Of a stretch of 42,387 bases of DNA, positions 11,956-36,430 are shown in pieces. Positions within the stretch are counted from its first letter, which is position 1. Each line of letters starts with the position of its first letter. The position numbers and the translations under genes were made by a program. This DNA comes from Sphingobium sp. (lineage in GTDB: Bacteria; Pseudomonadota; Alphaproteobacteria; Sphingomonadales; Sphingomonadaceae): NCBI GenBank assembly GCA_013911745.1, contig JACESO010000015.1:1-42387 (forward strand), in the 5' to 3' direction. The notes under the pieces are model-generated. The model saw only the letters and a program-made list of their open reading frames with translations, was not told the DNA's origin and made no database searches.

Positions 11956-12813
11956 ATGGCAGCAAGCATAGAGACGATGGTGGGGTTACGGCGGATGACG
12001 GCAGACGATCTGGTCGCCGCGCAGTCTCTTTCCAATGCGCAGGCATGGCCGCACCGCGTGGAGGACTGGGAAATCCTGCTGGGTCTGGGTTTTGGCTATG
12101 TCGCCGAGACCGAAGGCCGCATTGTCGGGACCGCGATGGCATGGCTGTATGGTGCGGACGCAGCGACATTGGGCATGGTGGTGGTTTCGCCAGACGCGGG
12201 CGAAGCCGGGATCGATCGACAGCTGATGAACGCCGTGCTGGGCGATCTGGGCGAGCGCACGGTGCTGCTCAATGCCCCGGCGGCAGGCGAGGCGCTTTTC
12301 GCTGCCATGGGCTTCACGCGTGGCCACGCCGTTTTCCAACATCAGGGCGCCGCCTTCGCTGTGCCGATCGCCGAACTGATGCCCAACGAACGCGTGCGCC
12401 CGCTGGGGAGCAAAGACATGCGAGCATTGCACGACCTTGCTCGCCGCGCGACCGGGATGGATCGCGACGCCCTGCTGAACGCGCTGGTCCCCGGCGCGCA
12501 AGGCGTCGTCCTGACCCGCAACAACGAGCCGGTAGGTTTTTCGCTGTTCCGCCGGTTCGGCCGGGGTCATGTCGTCGGGCCGACCATCGCTCCGGATACA
12601 GGTGGGGCGAAGGCGCTTATCTCCCACTGGCTTGGCTCAAATGCCGGCATCTTTTGCCGCATCGACATTCCCGAGGAAAGCGGCCTTGGCGAATGGCTCG
12701 AGGCGCTCGGCCTGCCTCGTGTCGGTCAGGTAAGGCGCATGGTGCGCGGCCGGACGCCCGATGTCGATCCAACTGCCCGGATTTTCACTCTCACTACGCA
12801 GGCCCTCGGATGA
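11956..12813 (+). CDS. Two-domain GNAT family N-acetyltransferase
   Basis: A 285-residue protein. The N-terminal half is a GNAT fold ([18 protein letters not shown], then [10 protein letters not shown]...[11 protein letters not shown], and [16 protein letters not shown]), and the C-terminal half is the Acetyltransf_18-like domain ([20 protein letters not shown] to [14 protein letters not shown]). The usual acetyl-CoA loop Q/RxxGxG/A is weak ([11 protein letters not shown]). Enzymes of this type transfer an acyl group from CoA to an amine; the substrate is unknown. ATG 11956 follows AAGGAG and a stem-loop leader; the frame upstream has no protein-like sequence. The stop overlaps the start of the aldehyde dehydrogenase gene (ATGA). 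A clear paralogue at 30318 shares GRGHVVGP and heads the second catabolic block. Confidence 0.85.
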
Positions 12814-14273: not shown

Positions 14274-14286
14274 GACGGGGTGTTTC

Positions 14287-15357: not shown

Positions 15358-15368
15358 CCCGCGAAAGG

Positions 15369-15397
15369 GCGCGCGGCAGATTATGCCGCGCGCTTTG
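15369..15397 (+). terminator. Rho-independent terminator after the tartrate-type dehydrogenase
   Basis: A perfect 10-bp stem, GCGCGCGGCA and TGCCGCGCGC, with loop GATTA, followed by TTTGCTT. It separates the GNAT-gabD-dehydrogenase operon from the aminotransferase gene. Confidence 0.75.
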
Positions 15398-15474
15398 CTT
15401 CAAAGGCGCGCCCCGCGCCGCTGCACAGCACAACTTGGGCTTTCCCTCCGCCCCGCGCGGCTAGTCTGGTCGCC

Positions 15475-16887: not shown

Positions 16888-16903
16888 AGAGGGGTAAAAG
16901 GGC

Positions 16904-17407
16904 ATGCTGGGCGGACCCAGACTGGACAGGATCGATCTCAAGATTCTCACGCAGCTTCAGCGATCGGGCCGGGTCACCAACGTCGAACTGGCCGATGCGG
17001 TCGGCCTGTCGCCGAGCCCGTGCCTCACGCGCGTCAAGCGGCTGGAGAAGGCTGGTTATATCACCGGCTACGGCGCGCATATCAACCTGCACAAGCTCGG
17101 CGAATATCTGACCGTCTTCACCGAAGTGACGCTGGCGGAGCATCGCTCGGGCGATTTCTCCCGGTTCGAGGCGCGCATCCGTAAGCTCGACGAGATCGTC
17201 GAATGCCATCTGGTGAGCGGCGGGTACGACTATCTGCTGAAATTCGTCACGCGCGGCGTCGCGCATTACCAGTCGATCGTCGAAGGGATGCTGGAAAGCG
17301 ATTATGGCATCGAGAAATATTTCAGCTACGTGGTGATCAAGTCGCCTTTCATCAAGCATCATTATCCCATCCAGCATCTGTTCGGCGAACAGCGGCAGGG
17401 GGCGTGA
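16904..17407 (+). CDS. Lrp/AsnC family regulator of the catabolic block
   Basis: A 167-residue feast/famine regulator with a winged helix-turn-helix (LDRIDLKILTQLQRSGRVTN, VGLSPSPCLTRVKRLEKAG) and a RAM domain (VFTEVTLAEHRSGDF to VECHLVSGGYDYLLKFVTRG). The C-terminal tail is longer than usual (YPIQHLFGEQRQGA). It lies between the aminotransferase and the amidohydrolase in the same orientation, and its stop overlaps a possible GTG start of the next gene. Lrp-type regulators inside catabolic operons usually respond to an amino-acid substrate or product and control their own operon; DoeX in ectoine breakdown is a known example with a neighbouring class III aminotransferase and aldehyde dehydrogenase. 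Local autoregulation is inferred. Confidence 0.93.
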   Translation: MLGGPRLDRIDLKILTQLQRSGRVTNVELADAVGLSPSPCLTRVKRLEKAGYITGYGAHINLHKLGEYLTVFTEVTLAEHRSGDFSRFEARIRKLDEIVECHLVSGGYDYLLKFVTRGVAHYQSIVEGMLESDYGIEKYFSYVVIKSPFIKHHYPIQHLFGEQRQGA

Positions 17408-17412
17408 CCGCG

Positions 17413-18591
17413 ATGAGCGATCTGGCCGACCTCATCGAACCGCTCGTCGCCTTCCGCCGCGACATCCATGCCCATCCGGAACTGGGTTTCTGCGAGCATC
17501 GCACCGGCGGCCGGATCGCGGAGCAACTGCGCGCGCTGGGACTGGAAGTGCATGAAGGCATCGGCCGCACCGGCGTCGTGGGCGTGCTGCGCAACGGCGA
17601 TCCGACGCGCAGCATTGGCTTGCGCGCGGACATGGACGCGCTGCCGATCGAAGAACAGACCAACCTTCCTTATGCCAGCCGCACGCCGGGGCAATTCCAT
17701 GGCTGCGGCCATGACGGCCACGTCGCGATGCTGCTGGGCGCGGCGCAGCATCTGGCGCGCACGCGCCGCTTCGACGGCACCGTCCATTTCTTCTTCCAGC
17801 CCGCCGAGGAAGGGCAGGGCGGCGCGCGGGAAATGGTGCGCGAGGGGCTGTTCGATCGCTTCCCGTGCGAGCGCGTCTTCGCCCTGCACAACTGGCCGGA
17901 CCTTCCCGCTGGGACGATCGCCACGCGGCCCGGCCCGATCATGGGCGCGGCAGACAAGTTCGAGATAAGGCTGGAAGGGCGCGGCGGCCATGCCGCCATT
18001 CCTCAGGATACGCCCGACGCCATCCTTGCCGCGGCGAGCCTAGTGCAGCAATTGAACGCGATCATCTCCCGCCGGGTCGCGCCGACCGCGTCCGCCGTCC
18101 TGTCGATCACCCAGATTCACGGCGGCCACACACATAATGTGCTCCCCGCAACCGTAACCGTCTCCGGCACCGTCCGCACCTTCGATCCGCTGGTGCAGGA
18201 CCGGATCGAGGCGTCGATCCGCGAGATCGCCTCAGGCGTTGCGCTGGCGGGCGAAGTGACGGCGAGCGTCGAATACATCCGCTACTATCCCGCGACGATT
18301 AATGACCCGCAAGCGGCGGAGGAAGCGCTCGAGGCGGCGGCGACAGTCGGCGAAGCCCGGATCGCGCCCGATCCCGCCTTCACCTCCGAAGATTTCGCCT
18401 TCATGCTCCAGGCGTGCAAGGGCGCCTATATCTGGCTGGGGCAGGCGAAGGCGCCGGGCTCGCCGCCGCTGCACAACCCGCATTATGACTTCAACGATGA
18501 TGTGCTGGAACTGGGCGTTCGGCTGCATGTGGCGCTGGTGGAGCGGCACCTGGCGGTTGGTGAAAACGCGCCGGCCATCGCGACGCTATAA
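17413..18591 (+). CDS. M20-family amidohydrolase (hippurate/N-acyl amino acid hydrolase type)
   Basis: A 392-residue dinuclear-metal amidohydrolase. Metal-site segments are RRDIHAHPELGF, LRADMDALPIEEQT, HGCGHDGHVAMLLGAA, the catalytic Glu pair in FFFQPAEEGQGGARE, LHNWPDLPAGT, and the late FTSEDFAFMLQ. RGGHAAIPQ belongs to the dimerisation/lid domain. M20D enzymes hydrolyse N-acyl amino acids, hippurate, or N-acetyl-diaminopimelate-type amides. In this block it would release the free amine or amino acid from an acylated intermediate or an imported amide (inference). ATG 17413 has a G-rich ribosome-binding site about 10 bases upstream; GTG 17404 overlaps the regulator stop and is possible. The stop ends just before the long leader of the DUF1624 gene. 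Confidence 0.9.
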   Translation: MSDLADLIEPLVAFRRDIHAHPELGFCEHRTGGRIAEQLRALGLEVHEGIGRTGVVGVLRNGDPTRSIGLRADMDALPIEEQTNLPYASRTPGQFHGCGHDGHVAMLLGAAQHLARTRRFDGTVHFFFQPAEEGQGGAREMVREGLFDRFPCERVFALHNWPDLPAGTIATRPGPIMGAADKFEIRLEGRGGHAAIPQDTPDAILAAASLVQQLNAIISRRVAPTASAVLSITQIHGGHTHNVLPATVTVSGTVRTFDPLVQDRIEASIREIASGVALAGEVTASVEYIRYYPATINDPQAAEEALEAAATVGEARIAPDPAFTSEDFAFMLQACKGAYIWLGQAKAPGSPPLHNPHYDFNDDVLELGVRLHVALVERHLAVGENAPAIATL

Positions 18592-19936: not shown

Positions 19937-21475
19937 ATGGCGAACGTCATCTCCACCGACCTGTCTCGGCGGATGCTGCTCGGCGGACTGGGTGCGGGGG
20001 CGGCCGTGAGTGGAGCGGGCGCGGCGATCCGCCGGCCCAAGGTTGGCGGGCGCATCCGCGTCGCCAGCGTCGCAGCTTCTACCGCGGACACGCTCGATCC
20101 GGCCAAAGGCAATCTGTCGACCGACTATATGCGGCTGTACCTGATCTACAGCGGGCTCACCCAATATGACGGCCAGTTGCGCGCGGTGCCCGGTCTCGCC
20201 GAAAGGATCGAGACGCGCGACAATATCGTCTGGTATATCCGCCTGCGCAAAGGCGTGCATTTTCACAATGGCAAGCCGCTGACGGCGGACGACGTCGTCT
20301 ATTCGCTGATGCGCCACCGCGATCCTGCCACGGGCTCCAAGGCGCTGGCCGTCGCCGAACAATTTTCCCGCGCGCGCAAGATCGGCCCGCTCGACGTTGA
20401 ACTCCGTCTGATCGGCCCCAACCCCGACCTGCCCGTCATCCTGGCCCAGCCTCATTTCCTGATCGTGGAAAATGGCCGTCGCGATTTCAGCGTGGCGAAC
20501 GGCACCGGCCCTTATATCTGCCGCGCCTTCGCGCCGGGTATTCGGACGATCGTTCGGCGCAATCCCAATTACTGGAAGCCCGGCCGCCCCTATCTGGAAG
20601 AGATAGAGGTGATCGCCATCCCCGACGAGATTTCGCGGGTCAATGCGCTGCTCTCGGGCGACGTGCAGATGATCAACGCGGTCAGCCCCGGATCGGTGAA
20701 AAGGGTGCGCGCCTCGCACCGCCATGCCTTCATGGAAACCAAGTCGGGTCTCTTCACTGACCTCATCATGCGGCGGGACAATCCGGTGACGGGTCATCCC
20801 GATTTCGTGCTGGCGATGAAATATCTGCTGGACCGCGAACTGATCAAGCGCGCGCTGTTCCGCGGCTATGCGACGATCGCCAACGATCATCCGGTGCCGC
20901 CTTTCAGCCCCTATTACAATGCCGACATTCCCCAGCGGCCGTTCGATCCCGATCGCGCCCGCTTTCTGCTCAAGCGCGCGGGGCTGCTCGGTACGCGGCT
21001 GCCGGTCTTTGTCTCGCCGGCCGCCAACGGGTCGGTCGATATGGGGTCGGTACTTCAGGAACATGCCGCGCGCATCGGCCTGCATCTCGCCATCAACCGG
21101 GTGCCGAGCGATGGTTATTGGGCGTCGCACTGGATGAAGCATCCGCTGACCTTCGGCAACGTCAATCCGCGCCCCACAGTGGACATGATGTTCAGCCTCT
21201 TCTTCCAGTCCAAGGCGCTGTCGAACGAGTCGGGCTGGAGCAATCCGCGCTTCGACCGGCTGCTGCTGGAGGCGCGCCGATCGACCGACGAGGCGAAGCG
21301 CAAGGCCATCTACGGCGAGATGCAATGGATCGTGCACCAGCATGGGGGCGTGGGCATCCCTGTCTTCCAGAGCCTGATGGACGGCTTTGATCGGCGCCTG
21401 AAGGGTATTTTCCCGATCCCGCTCGGCGGCTTCATGGCCTATATGTTCGGCGACCATGTATGGTGGGACGCATGA
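19937..21475 (+). CDS. Peptide-type ABC transporter substrate-binding protein (family 5)
   Basis: A 512-residue periplasmic binding protein of the SBP_bac_5 (DppA/OppA/NikA) family. A twin-arginine type signal is visible (LSRRMLLGG, then a hydrophobic AGAAVSGAGAA). The family body shows VWYIRLRKGVHFHNGKPL, DDVVYSLMRHRDP, GTGPYICRAFAPG and FDPDRARFLLKRAG. Such proteins bind di- or oligopeptides, opines, nickel-ligand complexes or similar amides. Ligand choice is not readable, but its place after the amidohydrolase suggests an N-acyl amino acid, dipeptide or opine-like compound. Its stop overlaps the permease start (ATGA at 21472). Confidence 0.93.
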   Translation: MANVISTDLSRRMLLGGLGAGAAVSGAGAAIRRPKVGGRIRVASVAASTADTLDPAKGNLSTDYMRLYLIYSGLTQYDGQLRAVPGLAERIETRDNIVWYIRLRKGVHFHNGKPLTADDVVYSLMRHRDPATGSKALAVAEQFSRARKIGPLDVELRLIGPNPDLPVILAQPHFLIVENGRRDFSVANGTGPYICRAFAPGIRTIVRRNPNYWKPGRPYLEEIEVIAIPDEISRVNALLSGDVQMINAVSPGSVKRVRASHRHAFMETKSGLFTDLIMRRDNPVTGHPDFVLAMKYLLDRELIKRALFRGYATIANDHPVPPFSPYYNADIPQRPFDPDRARFLLKRAGLLGTRLPVFVSPAANGSVDMGSVLQEHAARIGLHLAINRVPSDGYWASHWMKHPLTFGNVNPRPTVDMMFSLFFQSKALSNESGWSNPRFDRLLLEARRSTDEAKRKAIYGEMQWIVHQHGGVGIPVFQSLMDGFDRRLKGIFPIPLGGFMAYMFGDHVWWDA

Positions 21476-22452: not shown

Positions 22453-23276
22453 AGCGCCGGAGCCTCCTTCGCCGCGCGGGGGCGCTGCCCCTGTCGGGCA
22501 AGATCGGTCTGGCGCTGGTCTGCTTCTGGATCGTCGCGGCGATCGCAGGACCGTTCCTCGCCCCCTATCCACCCGGCGCTTTCGTCAGCGAAGAGGTGTT
22601 CGCCGGGGCGAGCAGCCGTTTCTGGTTTGGCAGCGATTTCCTCGGTCGCGACGTGCTGAGTCGACTGCTGGTCGGGGCGCAGTTCACCGTCGGGCTGTCC
22701 GCCGTCGCCGTCGCCATCGCGGCGTCGATCGGCACCGGCCTCGCGCTCACCGCCTCGGTCGGCCCGCGCTGGCTTGACGAACTGCTCGCGCGCGGCATGG
22801 ACACGCTCATCTCCATCCCAAGCAAGATCTTCGCGCTGGTGCTGGTCGCCGCCTTCGGCTCGTCGTTGCTGCTGCTGACTTTGATCGTCGCGATCACCTA
22901 TGTGCCCGGCAATTTCCGCATCGCCCGGTCGCTGGCGGTGGGCCTCACGCGGCTCGATTATGTCGAGGTGGCGCGGGCAAGAGGAGAGGGCCGGCTGCAC
23001 ATCGCCCTTGTCGAAATGCTGCCGAACATGATCCGGCCGCTGTTCGCCGACATCGGCCTGCGCTTCGTGTTCATCGTGCTGCTGCTCTCGGGCCTCAGCT
23101 TCCTGGGGCTAGGCCTCCAGCCGCCCGACGCCGATCTTGGCTCGCTGGTGCGCGAAAATGTGTCGGGCCTGGCCGAAGGGGCGCTCGCGATCCTGGTGCC
23201 GGCTGTCGCGATCGCCAGCTTAACGGTCGGGGTCAACCTGCTGATCGACGCCGCGACCCAAGGAGGTGTCAAGTGA
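22449..23276 (+). CDS. Peptide-type ABC transporter permease, DppC-like
   Basis: A 275-residue permease, slightly shorter than typical DppC (about 290-300). The N-terminal helix (IGLALVCFWIVAAIAGPFLA) is followed by the family motif FWFGSDFLGRDVLSRLLVGA, and the EAA loop appears as VARARGEGRLHIALVEMLP. The C-terminal part has FLGLGLQPPDADLGSLVREN. It overlaps the upstream permease by ATGA and the downstream ATPase by GTGA, so all importer genes are translationally coupled. Confidence 0.95.
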   Translation: MKRRSLLRRAGALPLSGKIGLALVCFWIVAAIAGPFLAPYPPGAFVSEEVFAGASSRFWFGSDFLGRDVLSRLLVGAQFTVGLSAVAVAIAASIGTGLALTASVGPRWLDELLARGMDTLISIPSKIFALVLVAAFGSSLLLLTLIVAITYVPGNFRIARSLAVGLTRLDYVEVARARGEGRLHIALVEMLPNMIRPLFADIGLRFVFIVLLLSGLSFLGLGLQPPDADLGSLVRENVSGLAEGALAILVPAVAIASLTVGVNLLIDAATQGGVK

Positions 23277-25069
23277 GCGCGGGACCGCATGTCGAGGTAC
23301 GCGGCCTTAGCGTCACCGTCCGGGGACCGGACGGCGCGCCGTTCCGCATCGTGGACGATGTCTCATTCAGCGTTGCGCGCGGCCAGGTGCTGGCGCTGAT
23401 CGGCGAATCGGGCTCGGGCAAGACCACGATTGCCCTGTCGCTTATGGGTTATGGCCGGGGCGGGGCTGTTGTCGGTGGGGATATCCGGGTAGGCGACGCG
23501 CGGCTCGACGGGGAGGGAGGCTCATCGCTTGCCGCGCAACGCGGGAACCGCATCACCTATGTGGCGCAGAGCGCGGCGGCAGCGTTCAACCCCTCGCGCC
23601 GGATCATCGACCAAGTGATCGAGCCGGCGCTGATCCACCGCACCGCGACTCCCACCGCCGCTCGCGTCCGCGCGATCGACCTGTTCCGTGCGCTCGCCTT
23701 GCCCGAACCCGAAACGATCGGCAGCCGCTATCCGCACGAATTGTCCGGCGGCCAGTTGCAGCGGCTGATGGCGGCGATGGCGCTCATCACCAAGCCCGAC
23801 CTGGTCATCTTCGACGAGCCAACCACCGCACTCGACGTCACCACCCAAGTCGAGGTGCTTCAGGCCTTTCGCAAGGTGGTGCGGAAGGAAGGCGCAACCG
23901 GCGTCTATGTCTCGCACGATCTTGCCGTAGTTGCGCAGATGGCGGACCATGTCTTGGTGCTCAATCGCGGGCAGGTACGCGAGCAGAATGCCGTTCACGC
24001 GATACTGGAAGCACCGGCGGATGATTACACCCGGATGCTGATGGCCGCCGCCCATCCCGTCGTCGCGGCACAGGCGGCGTCGGCCCCGGCCACCGAACCG
24101 CTGCTGGCGATCGAGGGTGTGTTTGCCGGTTATGGCCCGATCGACAAGGCCGGTCGGCCCGCCAGTCCGGTGCTGAGCGACGTCAGCCTGACGATCGGGC
24201 GGGGCGCTGCTGTCGGCGTCATCGGCGAATCGGGGTCGGGCAAGTCCACCGTCGCGCGCGTTGTCGCCGGGCTGCTCGCGCCTACGGCCGGATCGGTCTC
24301 GCTGGACGGAAGGCCGCTCGCACCCACCCTCTCCGGCCGCACTCGCGAGCAGTTGCGCCGCGTCCAGATCGTGTTTCAGAATGCCGATGTCGCACTCAAC
24401 CCCGCGCACAGCGTCGGTGAGATATTGGGCCGCGTGCTGCGCTTCTACTACGGTCTGCGCGGGGCGGAGGCGGCGCGGCGGGTGGCGCAACTGCTCGACC
24501 TCATCCGCCTGCCCATCGGCGTCGCCGATCGCCGGTGTGCGGAATTGTCGGGCGGGCAGAAGCAGCGCGTCAATCTGGCGCGGGCGCTTGCCGCCGATCC
24601 CGACATCATCCTGTGCGACGAAGTGACCTCCGCGCTCGATACGGTGGTGCGCGGCGCGATCATCGATCTGCTGGCCGATCTGCGGCGCGACCTCGGCGTC
24701 GCCTACCTCTTCATCAGCCATGACATCGCGACGGTGAAAGCGCTGTGCAACGACATCGTCGTGCTCTACAAGGGCACCCGCGTCGAAAGCGGCAGTTGTG
24801 CCAGCTATGCCGCAGCGCCCTTCCATCCCTACACCGATCTGCTGATTTCGTCCGTGCCTGAAATGCGGACCGACTGGCTGGCCGACGAGAGCATGCGTGC
24901 CGCCGCACCCTTCGCGCATCTGGACGCGCAGCCGGCGCTGTGCCGCTTCCTGCCGCGCTGCCCGGTGGCGGTGCCCGGCCTGTGCGACAGCTTCGCGCCG
25001 CCGTTGAGGCCAATGGCTGCGGGGAACAGCATCCTGTGCCATCGCACCGAAGGGCAATTGACGCATTGA
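23273..25069 (+). CDS. Fused double ATPase of the peptide-type ABC importer (DppD-DppF fusion)
   Basis: A 598-residue protein with two complete ATP-binding domains, corresponding to DppD and DppF in one chain. Domain 1 has Walker A GESGSGKTT, signature LSGGQLQRLMAAMAL and Walker B LVIFDEPTTALD. Domain 2 has Walker A GESGSGKST, signature LSGGQKQRVNLARAL and Walker B IILCDEVTSALD, where Val replaces the usual Pro or Ala after Glu. The C terminus has the cysteine-containing oligopeptide-transporter region (CRFLPRCPVAVPGLCDSF), which in some homologues binds an Fe-S cluster. GTG 23273 follows an excellent AAGGAGGTG. It energises uptake through the two upstream permeases. A 139-bp gap to the next gene suggests the operon ends here. 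Confidence 0.95.
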   Translation: MSAGPHVEVRGLSVTVRGPDGAPFRIVDDVSFSVARGQVLALIGESGSGKTTIALSLMGYGRGGAVVGGDIRVGDARLDGEGGSSLAAQRGNRITYVAQSAAAAFNPSRRIIDQVIEPALIHRTATPTAARVRAIDLFRALALPEPETIGSRYPHELSGGQLQRLMAAMALITKPDLVIFDEPTTALDVTTQVEVLQAFRKVVRKEGATGVYVSHDLAVVAQMADHVLVLNRGQVREQNAVHAILEAPADDYTRMLMAAAHPVVAAQAASAPATEPLLAIEGVFAGYGPIDKAGRPASPVLSDVSLTIGRGAAVGVIGESGSGKSTVARVVAGLLAPTAGSVSLDGRPLAPTLSGRTREQLRRVQIVFQNADVALNPAHSVGEILGRVLRFYYGLRGAEAARRVAQLLDLIRLPIGVADRRCAELSGGQKQRVNLARALAADPDIILCDEVTSALDTVVRGAIIDLLADLRRDLGVAYLFISHDIATVKALCNDIVVLYKGTRVESGSCASYAAAPFHPYTDLLISSVPEMRTDWLADESMRAAAPFAHLDAQPALCRFLPRCPVAVPGLCDSFAPPLRPMAAGNSILCHRTEGQLTH

Positions 25070-25208: not shown

Positions 25209-25949
25209 GTGGCGAAGTTCAAGTCCCTTGTATGGTCGGCCGCCATGGGCGCCGCCTTCCTCGCCCCCGCCGTCGCCGACGCACACGGCATCTGGTTTGC
25301 CCAGCGCGCCAAGCAGATCGCCGTCATCTACGGCGTGGGCGCGGACGACCTGGAGGCCGTCAAGCGCCAGCCCAATATGGAAAGCGTGCAGGCGTGGGAC
25401 GCCGATCTCAATCCGATCGGCGCGCAGCTTCGCACCAACGGGTCGCTGGTCGTCGTCGATACCGACGAGCCGCCCATGATCGTCAGCGCCGTGCTCCAGA
25501 ACGGCACTTGGTCCTGGGCACCCGACGGCGAGATCGTCAAGAAGACGCGGGAAGAGCTGCCGAACTCGACCAAGACCGAGACGACGATCAAATATGCCGT
25601 CACGATCCAGGGTTCGCTGACCAAGCCGATGCCGCTGATCCCCGCGCAGGCACTTCAGATCGTCCCAGTCGGCAAAATCCCGGATAAACTGGGCGAGTTG
25701 CTCACCTATCGCGTGACATGGATGGGCAAGCCCGCGGCCGGGGCCGGGGTGATCAATGACATGGTCAATGATCCCGACGCGGTGGAACTCAAGACCAAGG
25801 CGGACGGCACGGTGACGCTCCCGGTCCGCAACCAGGGGCTGAACGTCATCCGCGCCGTCCTTGTCACGCCGAGCGACAACCCGGCCAAGACGGATCGCTA
25901 CGAGCATACCGCGACGCTCGCCTTCACGCTGGCCCACAAGCCCGAATGA
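25209..25949 (+). CDS. Exported DUF4198 protein, predicted mature N terminus His-Gly
   Basis: A 246-residue exported protein. A 25-residue signal peptide ends in AVADA, and the mature protein is predicted to begin HGIWFAQ. DUF4198 proteins are periplasmic or surface beta-sandwich proteins often linked to nickel/cobalt or other metal uptake (NikM/NikK-like) and start with a His-rich segment. The body contains LLTYRVTWMGKPAAGAGV and the ending TATLAFTLAHKPE, typical of the family's Ig-like fold. GTG 25209 has GGAG 8 bases upstream. It is the first gene of a four-gene run with very short gaps. The exposed N-terminal His could bind a metal through its amino group and imidazole (inference). The metal is unknown. 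Confidence 0.85.
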   Translation: MAKFKSLVWSAAMGAAFLAPAVADAHGIWFAQRAKQIAVIYGVGADDLEAVKRQPNMESVQAWDADLNPIGAQLRTNGSLVVVDTDEPPMIVSAVLQNGTWSWAPDGEIVKKTREELPNSTKTETTIKYAVTIQGSLTKPMPLIPAQALQIVPVGKIPDKLGELLTYRVTWMGKPAAGAGVINDMVNDPDAVELKTKADGTVTLPVRNQGLNVIRAVLVTPSDNPAKTDRYEHTATLAFTLAHKPE

Positions 25950-25969
25950 CCTTGCCCGGAGAACCGACC

Positions 25970-26344
25970 ATGAAATTCCTATCGCTTGCAATCGTACCGG
26001 CGCTCGCCCTCTCTGCTGTCCCGGCCTTCGCTCATGGCGACGACAAGCCGCGCCATGGGGGGCAGGTCGTGGAAGTCGGCGAAACCGTGTTCGAGCTGGT
26101 TCGCGCCCCTGCCGGCGCGTCGCTCTACATGATTGAGGATGGCGACGAGGTGCCGGCGTCGTCGATGACCGGCAAGCTGATCGTCACCGTCGGATCGGCC
26201 AAGACCGAATTTCCGCTGGTCGCGGCCAAGGGCAACCAGTTCGTCGCCAAGGGAGCGAAAATCCCCGCCGGCGCGCGGGTCGGCGTGCTGGTCGTCAACA
26301 GGCAGACGCAGGCGCGCCAGGCGGCGACCTTCGCCATTAAATGA
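25970..26344 (+). CDS. Small exported protein with HGG motif, predicted mature N terminus His-Gly
   Basis: A 124-residue exported protein. A 21-residue signal peptide ends in VPAFA, and the mature form is predicted to start HGDDKPRHGGQVVEVG. A His-Gly-Gly near the N terminus followed by FELV...LYMIEDGDEV resembles small periplasmic metal-handling proteins and the N-terminal part of some heavy-metal efflux adaptors. I do not know a named family for it. ATG 25970 has GGAGA 7 bases upstream. Its stop overlaps the HupE-like start (ATGA). It may pass metal between the DUF4198 protein and the permease (inference from order). Confidence 0.78.
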   Translation: MKFLSLAIVPALALSAVPAFAHGDDKPRHGGQVVEVGETVFELVRAPAGASLYMIEDGDEVPASSMTGKLIVTVGSAKTEFPLVAAKGNQFVAKGAKIPAGARVGVLVVNRQTQARQAATFAIK

Positions 26345-27045
26345 AGGTGCGGCGGGCCGTCTTTCTTACTCTCGCCGGCTTCGCACTGGCGTCGGGCCTG
26401 ATCGATCCGGCCGTGGCGCATGGTGTGGCGGAAGGGGACAAGGCGTTCATCCAGAACAATCCTGGCGTCAACATCGTCCCCTATATCTATCTCGGCGCCA
26501 AGCATATGGTGACCGGATACGACCATCTGCTGTTCCTGTTCGGAGTCATCTTCTTCCTCTATCGGCTGAAGGATGTCGGCACCTATGTGACCTTGTTTGC
26601 GCTGGGGCACAGCACGACATTGCTGGCCGGCGTCTTCTTCAACATTCACGCCAACCCCTTCCTGATCGACGCGATCATCGGCCTGTCGGTCGTCTACAAG
26701 GCGCTCGACAATCTCGGCGCGTTCCCGACCCTGATCGGATTTCAGCCCAATCAGAAGGTCGCCGTGCTGATCTTCGGCTTCTTCCATGGCTTTGGCCTTG
26801 CGACCAAGCTTCAGGATCTGATTGCCTCGCGCGAGGGGCTGATCCCCAATCTTCTGAGCTTCAACATCGGGGTCGAAATGGGGCAGTTCATGGCGCTCAG
26901 CGTCATTCTGGTCCTGATAAGCCTGTGGCGGCGCTCGCCCGGCTTCGCCCGCAGCGTCATCGTCGCCAACAGCGCGCTGATGTGCGCCGGCATCGTCCTC
27001 ACCGGCTATCAGCTTGCCGGCTTTTTGATGGAGAAGAGCCTGTGA
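26341..27045 (+). CDS. HupE/UreJ-family membrane protein, putative metal permease
   Basis: A 234-residue membrane protein. A signal peptide ends in DPAVA, and the predicted mature start is again His-Gly (HGVAEGD). About six helices follow. The family motifs are clear: HX5DH as H55-MVTGY-D61-H62, followed by LLFLFG, ALGHSTTLLA, and FGFFHGFGLATKL. HupE proteins are nickel permeases associated with hydrogenase or urease, and the HX5DH motif is needed for transport in studied members. No hydrogenase or urease gene lies in the window, so the metal and purpose may differ. Its stop overlaps the GTG of the next gene, so coupling is expected. Confidence 0.9.
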   Translation: MKVRRAVFLTLAGFALASGLIDPAVAHGVAEGDKAFIQNNPGVNIVPYIYLGAKHMVTGYDHLLFLFGVIFFLYRLKDVGTYVTLFALGHSTTLLAGVFFNIHANPFLIDAIIGLSVVYKALDNLGAFPTLIGFQPNQKVAVLIFGFFHGFGLATKLQDLIASREGLIPNLLSFNIGVEMGQFMALSVILVLISLWRRSPGFARSVIVANSALMCAGIVLTGYQLAGFLMEKSL

Positions 27046-27644
27046 CTGCTCCCGATTCAGCAACACCCTATCAGGCGTCGCCGGCCACCCTGTGCCGCGC
27101 CGCCATCGCTGCTTTTGCCGGCGGCACGGCGATCCTGGTCCTGTTTGTGCTGCCGGCCGAATATGGCCTCGATCTGACCGGCGTTGGCGGCGCGATCGGC
27201 CTGACGCGGATGATGGGAGAGCAAGATGCAGCCGAACCGACCGAGCCCGAAGCGAAGGTCACTACCGCCGCCCATGCGGTCCCCGCGCAGACGCAGGCCA
27301 ATATCGCCAAGGCAACGCCCTTCCGCAGCGATGAAAAGACCCTGACCCTCGCGCCGCACAAGGGGATCGAGGTCAAGGCGCGGATGAAGGCGGGCGACAG
27401 CTTCAACTTTCGCTGGACCGCGACCGGGCCAGTGCGCGCCGACATGCATGGCGAACCGATCGGCGGCAAGGAAGACGCGTTCACCGACTATTGGAAGCAG
27501 AAGGATATAAAGAGCGCGCAGGGCAGCTTCACTGCGCCGTTCGCCGGCACCCACGGCTGGTACTGGAAGAATCGCCAGGATTTTCCGGTTACCATCTCCG
27601 TCAAGACCGACGGCTTCTACGAAATGTTGTTCGAGCGGAAATAG
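27042..27644 (+). CDS. Membrane-anchored periplasmic protein of the HupE module
   Basis: A 200-residue protein with one N-terminal transmembrane helix (AAIAAFAGGTAILVLFVLP), an acidic/alanine linker, and a C-terminal periplasmic domain of about 100 residues (LAPHKGIEVKARMKAGDSF to GTHGWYWKNRQDFPVTISV). The GTHGWYWKN segment and beta-rich pattern suggest a small sandwich domain; the conserved His, Trp and Tyr could form a binding site. It is of the kind often labelled transmembrane anchor protein beside HupE-like genes. No biochemical role is established to my knowledge. GTG 27042 overlaps the upstream stop. An upstream extension lies inside the HupE gene and is not credible. Confidence 0.78.
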   Translation: MTAPDSATPYQASPATLCRAAIAAFAGGTAILVLFVLPAEYGLDLTGVGGAIGLTRMMGEQDAAEPTEPEAKVTTAAHAVPAQTQANIAKATPFRSDEKTLTLAPHKGIEVKARMKAGDSFNFRWTATGPVRADMHGEPIGGKEDAFTDYWKQKDIKSAQGSFTAPFAGTHGWYWKNRQDFPVTISVKTDGFYEMLFERK

Positions 27645-27690
27645 TCCGGGCGAGGGGCGACGTTCTGGCTCGTACGAAGGATTGTCCCAT

Positions 27691-28801: not shown

Positions 28802-29470
28802 GTGACGACACTCAGGCCCAAATACATTACCTTCGACTGCTATGGCACCCTCATCAATTTCGAGATGGGGCCAGTTGCCCGCCGGGTTTACGCGGACCGC
28901 CTGTCGGGACAGCCGCTGGAGGATTTCGTCGAATATTTTTCCGCCTACCGGCTCGACGGCGTGCTGGGCGCGTGGCGGCCCTATCGCGACGTTGTCGCCG
29001 AAGCCTTGCAGCGCGCGGCCAAGCGCTCGGGCGTCGAATATCGCGATGCGGACGGCGAGGCGCTCTACGCCGCCGTTCCGACATGGAACCCGCACCCCGA
29101 CGTGGTCGAGCCGTTGAAGCGCGTGGGCGAGAAGATTCCGCTGGTCATCCTCTCCAACTCGATGGTGGACCTCATTCCCTACAGCGTTGAGAAGCTGGAA
29201 GCGCCGTTCCACACCGTCTGCACGGCGGAAGAAGCGCAGGCCTACAAGCCGCGGATGCGGGCGTTCGAGTATATGTTCGACACTCTGGGCTGTGGGCCGG
29301 AGGATGTGCTTCACTGCTCGTCCAGCTTCCGCTACGACATGATGACCGCCTATGACATCGGCATCAAGGACAAGGCGTTCGTCAATCGCGGGCATGAGCC
29401 GCTGAACGCCTATTATGAGGTTCATGACATTCCGAACCTAGGCGGGTTGCCGGGTCTGGTCGGGCTGTGA
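28802..29470 (+). CDS. Type II haloacid dehalogenase-like hydrolase (HAD superfamily)
   Basis: A 222-residue HAD-superfamily enzyme of the L-2-haloacid dehalogenase (type II) subgroup. Motif I is YITFDCYGTLINF with the nucleophilic Asp, motif II is VILSNSMVD, the Lys motif is YKPRMRAFEYM, and motif III lies in FRYDMMTAYDIGIKD. Type II enzymes replace a halide on 2-haloacids with water, but many members are phosphatases, so dehalogenation is not proven. GTG 28802 follows AGGGGG. The 220 bp upstream contain no gene. Its stop overlaps the start of the cupin gene (GTGA), so the two are co-translated and likely act in one pathway. Confidence 0.85.
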   Translation: MTTLRPKYITFDCYGTLINFEMGPVARRVYADRLSGQPLEDFVEYFSAYRLDGVLGAWRPYRDVVAEALQRAAKRSGVEYRDADGEALYAAVPTWNPHPDVVEPLKRVGEKIPLVILSNSMVDLIPYSVEKLEAPFHTVCTAEEAQAYKPRMRAFEYMFDTLGCGPEDVLHCSSSFRYDMMTAYDIGIKDKAFVNRGHEPLNAYYEVHDIPNLGGLPGLVGL

Positions 29471-31199: not shown

Positions 31200-32330
31200 A
31201 TGATCGACACGATCGACACGCCGGCGCTGCTGCTCGATCTGGCCAAGGTCGAACGCAACATAGCGCGGCTGCGCGGCCGGCTCGATGCGCTCGGCGTCGC
31301 CTTCCGCCCGCACGTCAAGACCGCCAAGTCGATCGAAGTGGCGCGGCGGCTCTTCCCCTCGGGTGTCGGGCCGATCACCGTCTCGACGCTGGCGGAGGCG
31401 GACTATTTCGCCCGTGGCGGCTTTACCGACATCACCTACGCCGTGGGCCTCGGGCCGGACAAGATCGGGCGCGCGCGCGATCTGGTGGCGCGGGAGGTGG
31501 CTTTGTCGGTGCTGATCGATTCGGTCGCTCAGGCGGACGCGCTTGCCACGGCCGCACGCGACGGCGGGGCAATGCCAAAGGTGCTGATCGAGATCGACTG
31601 CGACGGGCACCGCGGCGGGCTTTTGCCGGGCGATCCGGCGCTGCTCCAGGTGGCGGATGTTTTGCGCGACGGCGGCGTGTCCCTGGCAGGCGTGCTCACT
31701 CATGCGGGCGAGTCCTATGGCGCACGGGACGGCGTCGGACTGCCCGAAGCCGCCGAGGAGGAACGCGCCGCCGCCGTTGCCGCAGCGCAGGTCTTGCGCG
31801 CCGCAGGCCACGCCGCGCCGGTGGTCAGCGTCGGATCGACTCCCACCGCCCATTTTGCGCGCAATTTCGACGGCGTGACGGAAGTGCGCGCGGGCGTTTT
31901 CATGTTCTTCGACCTCGTGATGCACGGCATCGGCGTCTGCGCGATCGACGACATCGCCCTGTCGGTGGTCGCGACGGTGATCGGGCACCGGCCGGAAAAG
32001 GGCTGGATATTGATCGATGCTGGATGGATGGCACTATCGCGCGACCGGGGGACGCAAAAGCATCCAGTCGATCAGGGCTATGGGGTTGTCTGCGACATCG
32101 ACGGGAGGCCCTTTACCGACCTGATCGTCGCCGATGCGAGCCAGGAACATGGCATCGTCGCGGTGCGCGAGGGCAGCGGCGCGAGCCTGCCCGACCTGCC
32201 GATCGGCGCGCGGATCCGCATCCTGCCAAACCATGCCTGTGCCACCGGCGCGCAGCATGACGCCTATCGAGTGGTCGGAGACGGAGAGGGCGCGATCGCC
32301 GCCACTTGGCCGAGGACGCGCGGATGGTGA
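31200..32330 (+). CDS. DSD1/D-threonine aldolase-family PLP enzyme
   Basis: About 376 residues of the fold type III (alanine-racemase-like) D-threonine aldolase/D-serine dehydratase family. The N terminus reads DTPALLLDLAKVERNI, and the PLP Lys lies in FRPHVKTAKSIEVARR. The C-terminal metal-binding part includes ILPNHACATGAQHDAYRVV, with the His and Cys used for the divalent metal in the family. Known activities include D-threonine aldolase, D-serine dehydratase, and the beta-hydroxyaspartate aldolase BhcC that yields glycine and glyoxylate; which applies is open. I choose ATG 31200 because AAGGGG lies 7 bases before it, whereas ATG 31194 has the ribosome-binding site only 1 base away. Confidence 0.87.
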   Translation: MIDTIDTPALLLDLAKVERNIARLRGRLDALGVAFRPHVKTAKSIEVARRLFPSGVGPITVSTLAEADYFARGGFTDITYAVGLGPDKIGRARDLVAREVALSVLIDSVAQADALATAARDGGAMPKVLIEIDCDGHRGGLLPGDPALLQVADVLRDGGVSLAGVLTHAGESYGARDGVGLPEAAEEERAAAVAAAQVLRAAGHAAPVVSVGSTPTAHFARNFDGVTEVRAGVFMFFDLVMHGIGVCAIDDIALSVVATVIGHRPEKGWILIDAGWMALSRDRGTQKHPVDQGYGVVCDIDGRPFTDLIVADASQEHGIVAVREGSGASLPDLPIGARIRILPNHACATGAQHDAYRVVGDGEGAIAATWPRTRGW

Positions 32331-32343
32331 TGGAAACACGCCC

Positions 32344-33624
32344 ATGAAGATGACCTCCTACTGGCTCGACACGGCAAAGCCCTTCGCGTCAGGCGCACAG
32401 GGTGGCCCGCACGGAACGGCCGATGTCGCCGTGGTCGGCGCGGGCTTTACCGGCCTGTCCGCCGCTCTTGCGCTCGCGAAGAAGGGCGCGAAGGTCGTCG
32501 TATTGGAGGCCGATCGCGTCGTCGGCGCGGCATCGGGGCGCAATGGCGGCATGTGCAACAACGGCTTCGCGCAGGACTATGCCGGCATGGTCGGCAAGCT
32601 GGGCCGCGAACGCGCCAACATCCTCTACCGCGCCTTCGACGTCGGGGTGGACAAGGTGGAATCGATCGTCGCGGAGGAGGGCATCGACTGCCATTTCGCG
32701 CGCGTGGGCAAGCTCAAGCTCGCCGCGAAGCCCGAACATTATGACCGGATCGTGCGCTCGCAGGCATTGCTGGCGGAGGAGGTCGATCCCGAGACGCGGC
32801 TGGTGCCCCGTTCGGAGATGCGCGGCGAGATCGGGTCAGACCGCTATTTTGGCGGGATGCTCTATTTGAAGGGCGCGAACATGCATATGGGGCGGTTCGG
32901 CCAGGGACTGGCGGAAGCCGCCGCCCGCCATGGCGCGCTGATCCACGAGCATAATCCCGTCATCGCCATGAAGCGGCTGGCGGGGCAAGCGCATGAACTG
33001 ACGACCCCGCACGGCAGCGTACGCGCCAATCAGGTGCTGCTGGCGACGGGTACGTCGGCGGTCGGGCCGCTGGGCTGGTTCCGCCGCCGGATCGTGCCGG
33101 TAGGTGCCTTCCTGATCGCCACCGAGCCGCTCCCAGTCGATCTGCTCGATCGGCTGACGCCGCATCGGCGCAACACTACCGACACGCGCAACTTCGTCAG
33201 CTATTTCCGCACATCGCCCGACAATCGCATCATCTTCGGCGGGCGGGCGCGCTTCTCGGGGCGCAGCGATGCGGCTTCGGATGCCAAGAGCGGCGTCATC
33301 TTGCGCCAGGCGATGATCAGCGTCTTTCCCGAGCTGGCGGACGCGCGGATCGACTATTGCTGGGGCGGGATGGTGGACATGACCCGCGACCGGCTGCCGC
33401 GCGCGGGCGAGCGCGACGGGGTGTTCTACTCGATGGGCTACAGCGGCCACGGCACGCACATGGCGACCCATATGGGTGCGATCATGGCCGAAGTGCTGGA
33501 CGGCCGCGCCGACCTCAATCCTTGGCGCGATTTCGACTGGCCGGCGATCCCCGGCCATTTCGGCAAGCCCTGGTTCCTGCCGTTCGTGGGCGCCTACTAC
33601 CGCTATCAGGACTGGGTGAAATGA
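32344..33624 (+). CDS. DAO-type FAD-dependent oxidoreductase (PuuB/DadA-like)
   Basis: A 426-residue flavoprotein. The dinucleotide-binding motif is VAVVGAGFTGLSAALALAKK, followed by VVGAASGRNGGMCNNGFAQD, where the GRNGG pattern is typical of PuuB-like gamma-glutamylputrescine oxidases and glycine/D-amino-acid oxidases. The C-terminal FAD segment is YSMGYSGHGTHMATHMGA. Such enzymes oxidise a C-N bond, giving an imine that hydrolyses to an aldehyde or keto acid. The next gene, an aldehyde dehydrogenase, overlaps it (ATGA), like puuB-puuC logic: the amine is oxidised to an aldehyde, which is then oxidised to an acid. The substrate is undetermined. The ribosome-binding site at ATG 32344 is weak. 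Confidence 0.9.
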   Translation: MKMTSYWLDTAKPFASGAQGGPHGTADVAVVGAGFTGLSAALALAKKGAKVVVLEADRVVGAASGRNGGMCNNGFAQDYAGMVGKLGRERANILYRAFDVGVDKVESIVAEEGIDCHFARVGKLKLAAKPEHYDRIVRSQALLAEEVDPETRLVPRSEMRGEIGSDRYFGGMLYLKGANMHMGRFGQGLAEAAARHGALIHEHNPVIAMKRLAGQAHELTTPHGSVRANQVLLATGTSAVGPLGWFRRRIVPVGAFLIATEPLPVDLLDRLTPHRRNTTDTRNFVSYFRTSPDNRIIFGGRARFSGRSDAASDAKSGVILRQAMISVFPELADARIDYCWGGMVDMTRDRLPRAGERDGVFYSMGYSGHGTHMATHMGAIMAEVLDGRADLNPWRDFDWPAIPGHFGKPWFLPFVGAYYRYQDWVK

Positions 33625-35104: not shown

Positions 35105-36430
35105 ATGCCCGCCCCGCTGCGTTTTATCGAGTCCTCGCCCGCGCTTCCGGCTGAGGCCGATGCCGTCGTGATCGGCGGCGGGATCATCGGCGCGTTCACA
35201 TCCTATTATCTGGCGCAGCGCGGCTTCAAGGTGGCGCTGGTTGAAAAGGGCGTGGTGGGGGGCGAACAGTCGAGCCGTAATTGGGGTTGGTGCCGACAAC
35301 AGAACCGCGACGAGCGCGAACTGCCGCTCGCTACCAAGGCGCTCGACCTGTGGCAGGCGTTCGGCGAGGATACGGGCGAGGATACGGGTTTCCGCCGCTG
35401 CGGCCTCTTCTACGTCAGCAACAATGACGACGAACTCGCCACTTGGGCGCGCTGGGGCGACTATGCGCGGTCGGTGGGGGTGGCGACGCGGATGCTGTCG
35501 TCGGAAGAGGCGACCCGTCATGCCAACTTTACCGGCGAGCGGTGGAAGGGCGGGGTCCATTCGCAAAATGACGGCATCGCCAATCCGGGCCTCGCCGTGC
35601 CGGCGGTCGCGCGGGCGCTGATGCGGATGGGCAGCACGGTGCATCAGGCCTGCGCCGCGCGGGGGATTGAAACCAGCGGCGGCGCGGTGAGCGGCGTCGT
35701 GACCGAGCGGGGCACGATCCGCACCCGGCTGGTGATCCACGCCGGCGGCGCCTGGGCATCTTCGTTCATGCGCCAGCTGGGCGTCGATTTTCCGCAGGCA
35801 ACGGTGCGCCAGACGATCCTGGCCGTGGGCACGAGCGGACTCAACCTGCCCGACGCCTTCTACACCCAGTCGCTGTCCCTCACCCGGCGCGACGATGGCT
35901 GCCACACGCTGGCGATCAGCGGCCGGGCCAAAGTCGATCCGACGCTGCAATTCCTGCGCTACCAGCATAAATTCCTGCCGATGTTCAACAAGCGCTGGCG
36001 CAGCTTGTCGCCGGGCGGATTGCACGGGGTGCGCGGTCGGCATGAGGGCCTGTCGCGCTGGAAACTCGACGGCCCGACACCGATGGAGCGGGTGCGCATC
36101 CTCGATCCGCTCGCCGACCCCAAGACGGTGCGCCTGACACTGAAGCGCGCCGCCAGGCAGATACCGGCGCTGGGCTCCGTGCCCATGGTGGCCTCCTGGG
36201 CAGGCTTCGTCGACAGCACCCCGGACGGCGTGCCGGTGATCGGCGAAATACCGCAGATTCCAGGCTTCATTTTGGCGGCGGGCTTCAGCGGTCACGGCTT
36301 CGGCATCGGTCCCGGCGCGGGGCATCTGGTGGCGGACATCGCGTCAGGCGATACCCCAATCGTCGATCCCCAACCCTATCGTCTGTCTCGCTTCGGCGGC
36401 GGCGGGAAAATTGACGTTTCGGAATTTTGA
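35105..36430 (+). CDS. Second DAO-type FAD-dependent oxidoreductase
   Basis: A 441-residue flavoprotein of the D-amino acid oxidase/DadA superfamily. The N-terminal motif is AVVIGGGIIGAFTSYYLAQR, followed by GEQSSRNWGWCRQQNRD, a pattern seen in opine-oxidase and DadA-like proteins; the C-terminal FAD segment is FILAAGFSGHGFGIGPGAGH. It differs from the flavoprotein at 32344 and is probably a separate enzyme acting on another secondary amine or amino acid, or a subunit of a multi-component oxidase. A 12-bp tandem duplication (GGCGAGGATACG twice, 35363-35386) gives GEDTGEDTG. GGAG lies 9 bases before ATG 35105. It ends the block-2 catabolic operon, followed by a 236-bp gap to the receptor gene. 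Confidence 0.88.
   Translation: MPAPLRFIESSPALPAEADAVVIGGGIIGAFTSYYLAQRGFKVALVEKGVVGGEQSSRNWGWCRQQNRDERELPLATKALDLWQAFGEDTGEDTGFRRCGLFYVSNNDDELATWARWGDYARSVGVATRMLSSEEATRHANFTGERWKGGVHSQNDGIANPGLAVPAVARALMRMGSTVHQACAARGIETSGGAVSGVVTERGTIRTRLVIHAGGAWASSFMRQLGVDFPQATVRQTILAVGTSGLNLPDAFYTQSLSLTRRDDGCHTLAISGRAKVDPTLQFLRYQHKFLPMFNKRWRSLSPGGLHGVRGRHEGLSRWKLDGPTPMERVRILDPLADPKTVRLTLKRAARQIPALGSVPMVASWAGFVDSTPDGVPVIGEIPQIPGFILAAGFSGHGFGIGPGAGHLVADIASGDTPIVDPQPYRLSRFGGGGKIDVSEF

Follow-up and report, generated by a model that had tools for sequence, protein, structure and literature searches.

Four adjacent genes of a Sphingobium sp. contig appear, on balance, to encode a cassette for metal handling in the periplasm and inner membrane, in the service of an island that would import and degrade a metal chelate, a role predicted from sequence and gene neighbourhood. 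Three of the products are exported proteins predicted to begin, once mature, with His-Gly (His1 proteins), and the fourth is membrane anchored. It lies within a conserved island that extends far beyond the four genes first noted, and whose predicted importer and catabolic enzymes are newly linked to the cassette here. Positions refer to the window, the whole 42,387-nucleotide stretch of DNA that was analysed, and all genes are on its forward strand unless stated otherwise.

Predicted mature N-terminal histidines in the four-gene cassette

The four genes occupy the 25209-27645 region, as in the initial annotation. They encode a DUF4198 (NikK-like) exported protein (25209..25949, GTG start), which scores 54.9 bits against Pfam PF10670 (curated cut-off 34) and whose mature N terminus is His-Gly-Ile-Trp; a small exported protein (25970..26344); a HupE/UreJ-2 permease of a short type (26341..27045; PF13795, 180.7 bits against a cut-off of 24.5); and a membrane-anchored periplasmic protein (27042..27644), for which no Pfam family was matched and one plasmid record gives the label 'transmembrane anchor protein'. 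The small-protein and permease genes overlap at ATGA, and the permease and anchor genes at GTGA. ADA, AFA and AVA precede His-Gly in the DUF4198 protein, the small protein and the permease, respectively, as noted earlier. Cleavage sites were predicted with our own rule-based scorer, which was retuned after an early version missed the permease site and is thus not blind for the window proteins; its best site falls exactly before the His in the small protein and the permease, and two residues earlier (AVA before DAHG) in the DUF4198 protein. Ala directly precedes the His in 28/28 aligned DUF4198 sequences, the window protein included, and cleavage before the His is therefore regarded as settled for this family.

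Conservation of the mature His in orthologues had been set beforehand as a refuting test, and poor conservation was not seen. The residue is kept in 80/80 permeases, 29/29 small proteins and 27/27 intact DUF4198 proteins; the DUF4198 frame of locus L013 is broken and was set aside from the count. The 80 loci are the best matches listed for the permease query (59-92% identity), so the sample leans to near relatives. A wider PF13795 sample from 200 genomes of the phylum, comprising 29 loci besides the window's own, has His first in 17/17 short-type and 9/12 long-type proteins. The background was taken from 672 gene calls (800 kb, three genomes of the same family), where His stands at +1 in 1 of 218 signal-peptide-like proteins, a set into which the scorer also lets some membrane proteins. 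A chance origin of the three His-first proteins, already considered very unlikely for three exported products of one translationally coupled operon, is ruled out by the conservation in homologues together with this background. A further His1 protein was counted in 45/80 of the listed loci, a figure that includes several spurious reverse-strand frames.

The metal role initially proposed for these proteins agrees with existing knowledge of DUF4198 and HupE/UreJ-2. The accompanying claim that such a system is undescribed no longer holds for its parts, because passages of PMC12537917 (2025) report His1 metal sites in a DUF4198 protein and in HupE/UreJ-2 fusions. That DUF4198 protein (IsDUF4198/NikK, PDB 9GCB) shares with the window protein its Pfam family, its export and its mature N-terminal His (sequence E 9.1e-07; profile E 1.4e-10), and binds Ni through His1, the published site consisting of His1 and His18. 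In contrast, position 18 of the window family is occupied by Val in 23 and Ile in 5 of the 28 aligned sequences, with no His at positions 16-22; this column rests on counting, and the PDB alignments begin only near residue 31. In the mature window protein, the next His after His1 are at residues 208 and 218. His218 is kept in 27/28 sequences, and Asp21-Asp22 in all 28.

The small protein, with a mature form H1-G2 ... P6-x-H8-G9-G10, matched no Pfam or NCBIfam family. H1, G2, H8, G9 and G10 are invariant in 30/30 aligned sequences, and a pattern scan caught four of five newly added small proteins (L183, L184, L186 and L187), leaving L185 unmatched. Its predicted model (mean pLDDT 94.0) is an eight-stranded β-sandwich, for which VIA gave CrdA (9ll4) as the top match (Z 11.1, rmsd 2.4, 91 aligned residues) and returned the P19/FetP/FtrA copper-binding proteins at Z 8.6-10.3. 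A DUF4426 protein with no metal role known to us is interspersed with these copper proteins in the same list, at Z 9.3. Foldseek placed CrdA at E 5.3e-03, none of its matches reached E 0.001, and sequence similarity to CrdA and P19/FetP/FtrA was not detected. The modelled likeness to Helicobacter pylori CrdA lies in a CrdA-like β-sandwich fold. CrdA is described in passages of PMC9182242 as lacking His and binding through a Met-rich motif, whereas that motif is absent from the small protein, which has two Met in its mature window form and the invariant His1 and His8. A CopC-like identity was set aside as less likely, with no sequence match to CopC and no CopC among the 50 VIA matches listed.

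By sequence family, the window permease is a HupE_UreJ_2 member, predicted to belong to the nickel-permease class. Passages of PMC12537917 describe Cu and Ni binding by His1 domains of ~175 residues ('anglerases') fused to HupE/UreJ-2 permeases, with DUF4198 genes as frequent neighbours of the Ang-1 type. The window permease resembles Ang-1 and Ang-2 in carrying His1 after the signal peptide of a HupE/UreJ-2 protein, but it has no anglerase domain: in place of their folded ~175 residues, only 25 residues separate His1 from a G-x-x-H-x6-DH region. The distance to the first His motif is 22-25 residues in 17/17 short-type proteins, a type not described in sections 6 and 8 of PMC12537917. His1, His36, His64 and His123 are present in 81/81 sequences, and His29 in 80/81 (the best 80 listed matches and the window protein). 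The predicted model has a mean pLDDT of 78.7, and about 67 over residues 1-10, where the placement of His1 is not fixed; among PDB structures it matches generic transporter folds. The anchor gene lies beside the permease gene in 79/80 listed loci, and its product keeps His136 in 80/80 and His171 in 79/80 sequences. As the small protein is absent from 51/80 of the listed permease loci, permease and anchor also live outside the island.

Importer and catabolic genes around the cassette

Upstream of the cassette are genes for a family 5 substrate-binding protein (SBP) of the peptide/nickel/opine importer class (19937..21475; PF00496, 217.7 bits), two ABC permeases (21460-22452 and 22449-23276; PF00528) and the fused double ATPase of the importer (23273..25069; two PF00005 stretches and PF08352). 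A plain nickel transporter was rejected as the identity of this ABC system, because the SBP scores far below the cut-offs of NikA-type models and its PDB matches mix peptide, glutathione-type, heme, opine and nickel binders. Further upstream is a catabolic block (12045..18591) encoding a succinate-semialdehyde-type aldehyde dehydrogenase, a tartrate dehydrogenase, a class III aminotransferase, an Lrp/AsnC regulator and an M20 amidohydrolase, assigned through TIGR01780, TIGR02089, NF004625 and TIGR01891, all over cut-off, and Pfam; the first and last frames probably start further downstream than annotated. On the other side of the cassette lie genes for a HAD type II enzyme resembling L-azetidine-2-carboxylate hydrolase (28802..29470; TIGR01428 over cut-off) and for two FAD-dependent amine oxidoreductases of the DAO family. 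The first of these (32134..33624; PF01266, 224.5 bits, residues 97-453) probably has its true start inside the annotated frame, and the second (35105..36430) scores 238.1 bits with PF01266. These are followed by a TonB-dependent receptor, in two frames in this assembly (36668..38837; barrel frame PF00593, 210.1 bits), a PepSY-associated membrane protein (38901-39941; PF03929) and a D-2-hydroxyacid dehydrogenase (39887-40864; PF02826).

The closest solved relative of the HAD enzyme, by sequence, appears to be L-azetidine-2-carboxylate hydrolase (PDB 3smv), an enzyme grouped here with fungal AzhA as a nearest known system. The best PDB matches, 3smv, 8ywo and 9v14, score 82.4 bits (E 3e-22), with 8hp5-8hp7, which are named only (S)-2-haloacid dehalogenase, close behind at 74-78 bits; the first chains that bear the name L-haloacid dehalogenase reach 38 bits. 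In the alignment with 3smv, Asp12 falls on the FDCYGTL stretch and, with other residues, is invariant in 27/27 homologues; we take it to be the catalytic Asp of L-azetidine-2-carboxylate hydrolase (Gross et al. 2008). An Asp at this position is common to HAD type II enzymes in general.

Linkage was assessed in 23 cassette regions, which were chosen for the cassette, against 13 control regions. A HAD homologue is present in 21/23 cassette regions, the SBP, each permease and the ATPase in 20/23, and the first amine oxidoreductase in 19/23, compared with 0/13 controls in every case. Each gene of the catabolic block occurs in 17-19 of the 23, the aldehyde dehydrogenase also in 1/13 controls; the second amine oxidoreductase is found in 11/23, the D-2-hydroxyacid dehydrogenase in 16/23 and a DUF4198 homologue in 23/23. 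The TonB receptor, with its barrel part as query, was detected in 15/23 regions and 0/13 controls, and the PepSY protein in 9/23; the absence of the former from 8 regions and of the latter from 14 indicates that an outer-membrane step is not general. The island part is missing from 2/23 regions, one of which (G352) was covered over only 20 kb. At the level of genomes, the HAD gene is present in 29/29 that carry the cassette, within 25 kb on the same contig in 21, and among 59 genomes of the family a close HAD homologue accompanies the small protein in 6/6 and occurs in 0/53 without it. These two counts are not fully independent, because G031, from the family sample, and G358 share identical coordinates and are apparently one genome. 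The partners in tight linkage are the importer, the FAD amine oxidases, the azetidine-hydrolase-like HAD and enzymes running towards pyruvate. Among the matches listed, the closest locus is that of Sphingobium fuliginis DSM 18781.

Proposed metal handling and competing explanations

In the explanation that we favour, the TonB receptor, where present, would bring a metal-chelate complex into the periplasm, where metal and ligand would separate. The ligand would enter through the SBP5 ABC importer and then be digested. The released Ni(II), Cu or similar ion would be held by the two soluble His1 proteins, DUF4198 and the small protein with its CrdA-like predicted fold; the permease could take the ion over with its His1 arm and His motifs and move it across the inner membrane, assisted by the anchored protein with its two conserved His. 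A relay among the three His1 proteins may operate, and uptake of the metal seems somewhat likelier than its disposal. The invariant His1 in three families, the published Ni or Cu binding of related His1 sites, the copper-protein matches of the small-protein model, the pairing of permease and anchor, also next to metal genes on plasmids, and the island linkage favour this connection of cassette and island. Counting against it are the two regions that lack the island part, the patchy TonB receptor and PepSY protein, the permease loci devoid of the small protein, the Foldseek result and DUF4426 match for that protein, and the occurrence of HupE beside nickel-efflux genes, which could mean resistance, not uptake.

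Metal resistance is a possible, though unlikely, alternative, in which the cassette buffers and removes excess Ni, Cu or Co and its link to the island only protects from metal released in chelate digestion. Permease and anchor adjoin RcnA, ncrABC or an RND-plus-MFS metal cluster on plasmids, CopB is encoded in the window (40861-41574, other strand), the model of the small protein resembles CrdA, a copper-resistance protein, and passages of PMC5557971 report that nickel induced a HupE/UreJ-domain gene more strongly than any other gene in Sphingobium sp. ba1. In the nickel-resistance islands, however (nreB-cnrCBA of Sphingobium sp. ba1; ncrABC plasmids), the HupE/UreJ gene, usually with the anchor, lies beside Ni/Co efflux genes, whereas the Pfam-scanned genes of the window include no NreB, RcnA or CnrCBA-type pump, and the genes around the cassette encode an ABC importer and catabolic enzymes. 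The four-gene cassette is itself without an efflux pump, and HupE/UreJ proteins are described, in passages of PMC5557971 and PMC12537917, as nickel permeases that accumulate Ni.

It is unlikely that the enzymes digest a non-chelate amino compound, such as free azetidine-2-carboxylate, an opine or an ectoine-like solute, and that the metal cassette is carried for another reason. This would suit the M20 enzyme, whose score approaches, without reaching, the cut-off of the DoeB2 deacetylase model and which is encoded beside the Lrp/AsnC regulator and class III aminotransferase, an arrangement known from ectoine loci. A DUF4198 homologue is, however, present in all 23 regions and most of the enzymes are not, a point weakened by the choice of regions for the cassette, and a small free amino acid would not normally call for a TonB receptor with a PepSY protein.

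That the island imports a ferric siderophore, with His1 proteins that handle iron rather than Ni or Cu, is quite improbable; HupE/UreJ-2 is not known to us as an iron transporter family. The TonB receptor and PepSY protein, the P19/FetP proteins of the fold list, which belong to iron uptake, and the DUF4198 genes of Caulobacter, described as Fur-regulated or iron-responsive in passages of PMC3751524 and PMC11870441, are consistent with iron; but PepSY and TonB are limited to 9 and 15 of the 23 regions, and the His1 sites measured in PMC12537917 favoured, in the passages concerned, Ni or Cu. Supply of nickel to nickel enzymes, which is the classical function of HupE/UreJ and the nearest frame of the initial annotation, accords with PF13795 membership and with the Ni binding of a DUF4198 relative (passages of PMC12537917) but is very improbable: 18 of 30 cassette genomes have neither urease nor NiFe hydrogenase, since strong matches (E below 1e-50 for urease) occur in only 12/30 and 1/30, respectively, and the reported lack of both near the cassette extends to the source genome (81% complete), in which urease alpha subunit and NiFe hydrogenase were not found.

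Plant metal chelators as a candidate substrate

Returning to metal-chelate breakdown, the predicted gene functions tentatively suggest that the island may effect bacterial digestion of plant nicotianamine and/or mugineic-acid phytosiderophores, a proposal in which we have less than even confidence. To our knowledge, nicotianamine and the mugineic acids all bear an azetidine-2-carboxylate end. The receptor and SBP5 importer would take in the chelate, and the amine oxidases would cleave it at the secondary amines, with aspartate or malate semialdehydes and azetidine-2-carboxylate as products. Opening of the azetidine ring by the HAD enzyme would give 2-hydroxy-4-aminobutyrate, which the class III aminotransferase and semialdehyde dehydrogenase would convert to malate. 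Tartrate dehydrogenase is malate-decarboxylating, and could take malate to pyruvate. The three His1 proteins, HupE among them, would capture the Ni, Cu or other metal leaving the ligand.

No published bacterial catabolic island for nicotianamine or phytosiderophores was found among titles and abstract openings of the mostly open-access literature that was covered, which is weak evidence of absence. A 2021 paper (PMC7786132) states that neither the taxa nor the genes behind phytosiderophore metabolism are known at present, and microbial breakdown is described in passages of PMC7946895 as limiting mugineic-acid-based iron fertilisers. With its named genes, its predicted pathway and a strain identified by name, S. 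fuliginis DSM 18781, the island would make the question directly testable. His1 metal proteins were recognized as a general class only in 2025; here three of them travel with an anchor as one unit, and the permease bears the His directly, with no extra domain. If the proposal is correct, a cassette of several His1 proteins devoted to the metal released from a digested chelate would represent a novel arrangement, and would link two fields, His1 metal proteins and phytosiderophore metabolism.

Histidine-first proteins of the cassette

The layout of the four genes in the initial annotation was borne out on reading the window: genes for a DUF4198 protein (25209-25949), a small exported protein (25970-26344), a HupE/UreJ-2 permease (26341-27045) and a membrane anchor (27042-27644) follow one another on the forward strand. 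The first two are separated by 20 bases and the following two junctions overlap (ATGA and GTGA), indicating tight coupling. The permease and the DUF4198 protein exceed the cut-offs of PF13795 and PF10670, respectively; neither the small protein nor the anchor reaches a curated-level match to any Pfam or NCBIfam family. The source genome comprises 2.89 Mb in 147 contigs and is 81% complete.

A GTDB genome collection was searched with the permease, and the best 80 loci were retained and screened for all four proteins. Among these loci the anchor adjoins HupE in 79, the small protein is present in 29 and DUF4198 in 28 (one broken); the nearest named relative is Sphingobium fuliginis (HupE identity 92%). 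The prediction that three cassette proteins begin, once the signal peptide is removed, with histidine (His1) holds in the orthologues: aligned to the window, His1 is conserved in 80/80 HupE, 29/29 small proteins and all 27 intact DUF4198 proteins. As background, His occupies position +1 in 1 of 218 signal-peptide-like proteins (800 kb from three genomes of the same family). Also invariant in the small protein are G2, H8, G9, G10, G16, E21 and G67. In HupE, His1, His36, His64 and His123 are invariant across 81 aligned rows and His29 is kept in 80, while the anchor retains His136 in 80/80 rows and His171 in 79/80.

The initial annotation read this arrangement as suggesting a metal relay, to its knowledge undescribed. 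That novelty no longer stands for two of the three families, in which His1 is already known. The published account reports a DUF4198 protein that binds Ni (Kd 18 nM) through His1 and His18, an N-terminal His in 79% of DUF4198 proteins, and two types of HupE/UreJ-2 permease, the anglerases, whose His1 domain binds Cu or Ni, DUF4198 being a frequent neighbour of the Ang-1 type (PMC12537917). The small protein is a further, nameless His1 family. Compared with anglerases, the window permease is of a short type, His1 and the first conserved motif lying 25 residues apart. Across 29 HupE/UreJ-2 loci read from 200 genomes of the phylum, 17 were short, all with His1 (17/17), and 12 long (His1 in nine, absent in three). 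The cassette DUF4198 differs from the published Ni site in having Val or Ile at position 18, the column being placed by counting, and after His1 the mature window protein has no His before residue 208. The invariant Asp21-Asp22 and His218 (27/28) are candidates for alternative second ligands. PDB entries 9mhi-9mho match the DUF4198 profile under the title phosphoribosylglycinamide formyltransferase, a label that looks odd for the sequence.

Relatives beyond the cassette and the predicted fold of the small protein

A HupE match occurs in 486 plasmid records, and on plasmids HupE and the anchor are found without DUF4198 and the small protein, in the neighbourhood of RcnA, of ncrABC or of an RND/MFS cluster. 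A further His1 protein lies within 3 kb of HupE in 45 of the best 80 loci, a rule-based count covering the proteins of the cassette as well as some spurious frames. The extra proteins outside the cassette include short His/Asp-rich ones, one of them annotated as DUF6488 in a plasmid record. Such a short, exported, His-first family lies downstream of the HupE-anchor pair at loci L032, L035, L053, L060 and L087 (the last annotated as DUF6488). At L060 (6296-7111) two tandem HupE homologues flank the anchor gene, the second also His-first.

The predicted model of the small protein (pLDDT 94.0) gave no Foldseek match at E 0.001 or better. A second structural comparison ranked Helicobacter pylori CrdA first (Z 11.1); copper-binding proteins of the P19/FetP type came next (Z 8.6-10.3), and a DUF4426 protein also matched (Z 9.3). 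CrdA lacks His and uses Met (PMC9182242), so any metal site in the small protein must differ. Relatives of the small protein found elsewhere in some genomes, at loci L124 and L125, start HAPPVG(V/A)HGG; the H1...H8-G-G motif is thus wider than the cassette.

A conserved island around the cassette

In the window a family-5 solute-binding ABC importer (solute-binding protein at 19937-21475) lies directly upstream of the cassette, and catabolic genes lie on both sides; two sphingomonad plasmids carry the cassette amid the same genes in different orders. We took 20-60 kb around the cassette from 23 genomes and scored 24 window genes at ≥40% identity, with 13 sets of random stretches as controls. 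The azetidine-hydrolase-like gene (HAD, 28802-29470) was present in 21 of the 23 regions; the solute-binding protein, both permeases and ATPase of the importer in 20 each; and the first aldehyde dehydrogenase, aminotransferase, Lrp regulator, M20 enzyme, HGSNAT-like protein, GNAT protein and amine oxidase 1 in 19 each. Tartrate dehydrogenase (17), hydroxyacid dehydrogenase (16), the TonB receptor (15), amine oxidase 2 (11), the second aldehyde dehydrogenase (10), and the cupin, D-serine-dehydratase-like and PepSY proteins (nine each) followed. In the controls every scored gene was found in 0/13, except the first aldehyde dehydrogenase (1/13). DUF4198, HupE and the anchor score 23/23 because the regions were picked for the cassette; the small protein scored 19/23, compared with 29/29 by profile, as the region search is less sensitive.

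Gene order in the island varies around a recurring block (hydroxyacid dehydrogenase-HAD-amine oxidase 1-solute-binding protein-permeases-ATPase). Two regions, G352 (only 20 kb read) and G353, showed no importer, and G354 carries the island on the opposite strand, ∼10 kb off. The window's TonB receptor gene (36668-38837) has plug and barrel in different frames, which reflects either a genuine frameshift or an error in the assembly. At the island's left edge a weak match to a Y2_Tnp transposase (10527-11144) may bear on its mobility, and a CopB-type copper resistance protein (PF05275; 40861-41574, reverse strand) lies just beyond the island.

HAD is present in all 29 cassette genomes (identity 53-92%): by hand-counted distances, on the same contig within 25 kb in 21, 53 kb off in one and on another contig in seven. 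In a sample of the family with one genome per genus (59 in all), the small protein occurs in six, precisely the six that carry HAD at ≥57% identity; the remaining 53 have no such HAD, one giving a 32% match. Leaving aside the window's own genome, HAD accompanies the small protein in 5/5 genomes, against 0/53 without it.

Metal and candidate compound

A nickel-enzyme role is unlikely to be the cassette's general one, since strong urease and hydrogenase matches occur in only 12/30 and 1/30 cassette genomes, respectively. The metal itself may be nickel, favoured by the permease family and DUF4198; copper, favoured by the small protein's predicted fold and the nearby CopB; or iron, favoured by the TonB receptor, PepSY and the DUF4198 genes that respond to iron in Caulobacter (PMC3751524 and PMC11870441). 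The gene most induced by Ni in Sphingobium sp. ba1 encodes a HupE/UreJ domain (PMC5557971), a finding that fits either uptake-linked buffering or resistance.

The best solved relatives of HAD are L-azetidine-2-carboxylate hydrolase entries (82 bits); it scores 74-78 bits against 8hp5-8hp7, compared with 38 bits against the first chains named L-haloacid dehalogenase. The hydrolase converts azetidine-2-carboxylate to 2-hydroxy-4-aminobutyrate, which is then transaminated (PMC8016842). The island's class III aminotransferase, succinate-semialdehyde-type dehydrogenase and tartrate dehydrogenase each exceed their NCBIfam cut-offs. Azetidine-2-carboxylate is the terminal group of nicotianamine and the mugineic acids, the main ligands of Ni, Cu, Zn and Fe in plants. 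The azetidine end of these compounds is covered partly by PMC7946895, and their place as plant metal ligands in part by PMC10341464. Our guess is that nicotianamine or mugineic acids are the most economical candidate for the island's compound, because they would account for the azetidine hydrolase, the amine oxidases, the metal-chelate-type importer and the metal cassette together. That guess leaves room for free azetidine-2-carboxylate or an opine, for which many of the same enzymes would serve, and for ectoine breakdown, which the M20 enzyme and Lrp regulator recall. The sequence observation itself is firm and conserved, and some of its parts are already known; as far as could be seen, the combination and the link to the island are new. 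The bolder reading, that the island acts on nicotianamine or mugineic acids, would bring an unanswered question in plant-microbe metal nutrition within reach of experiment.
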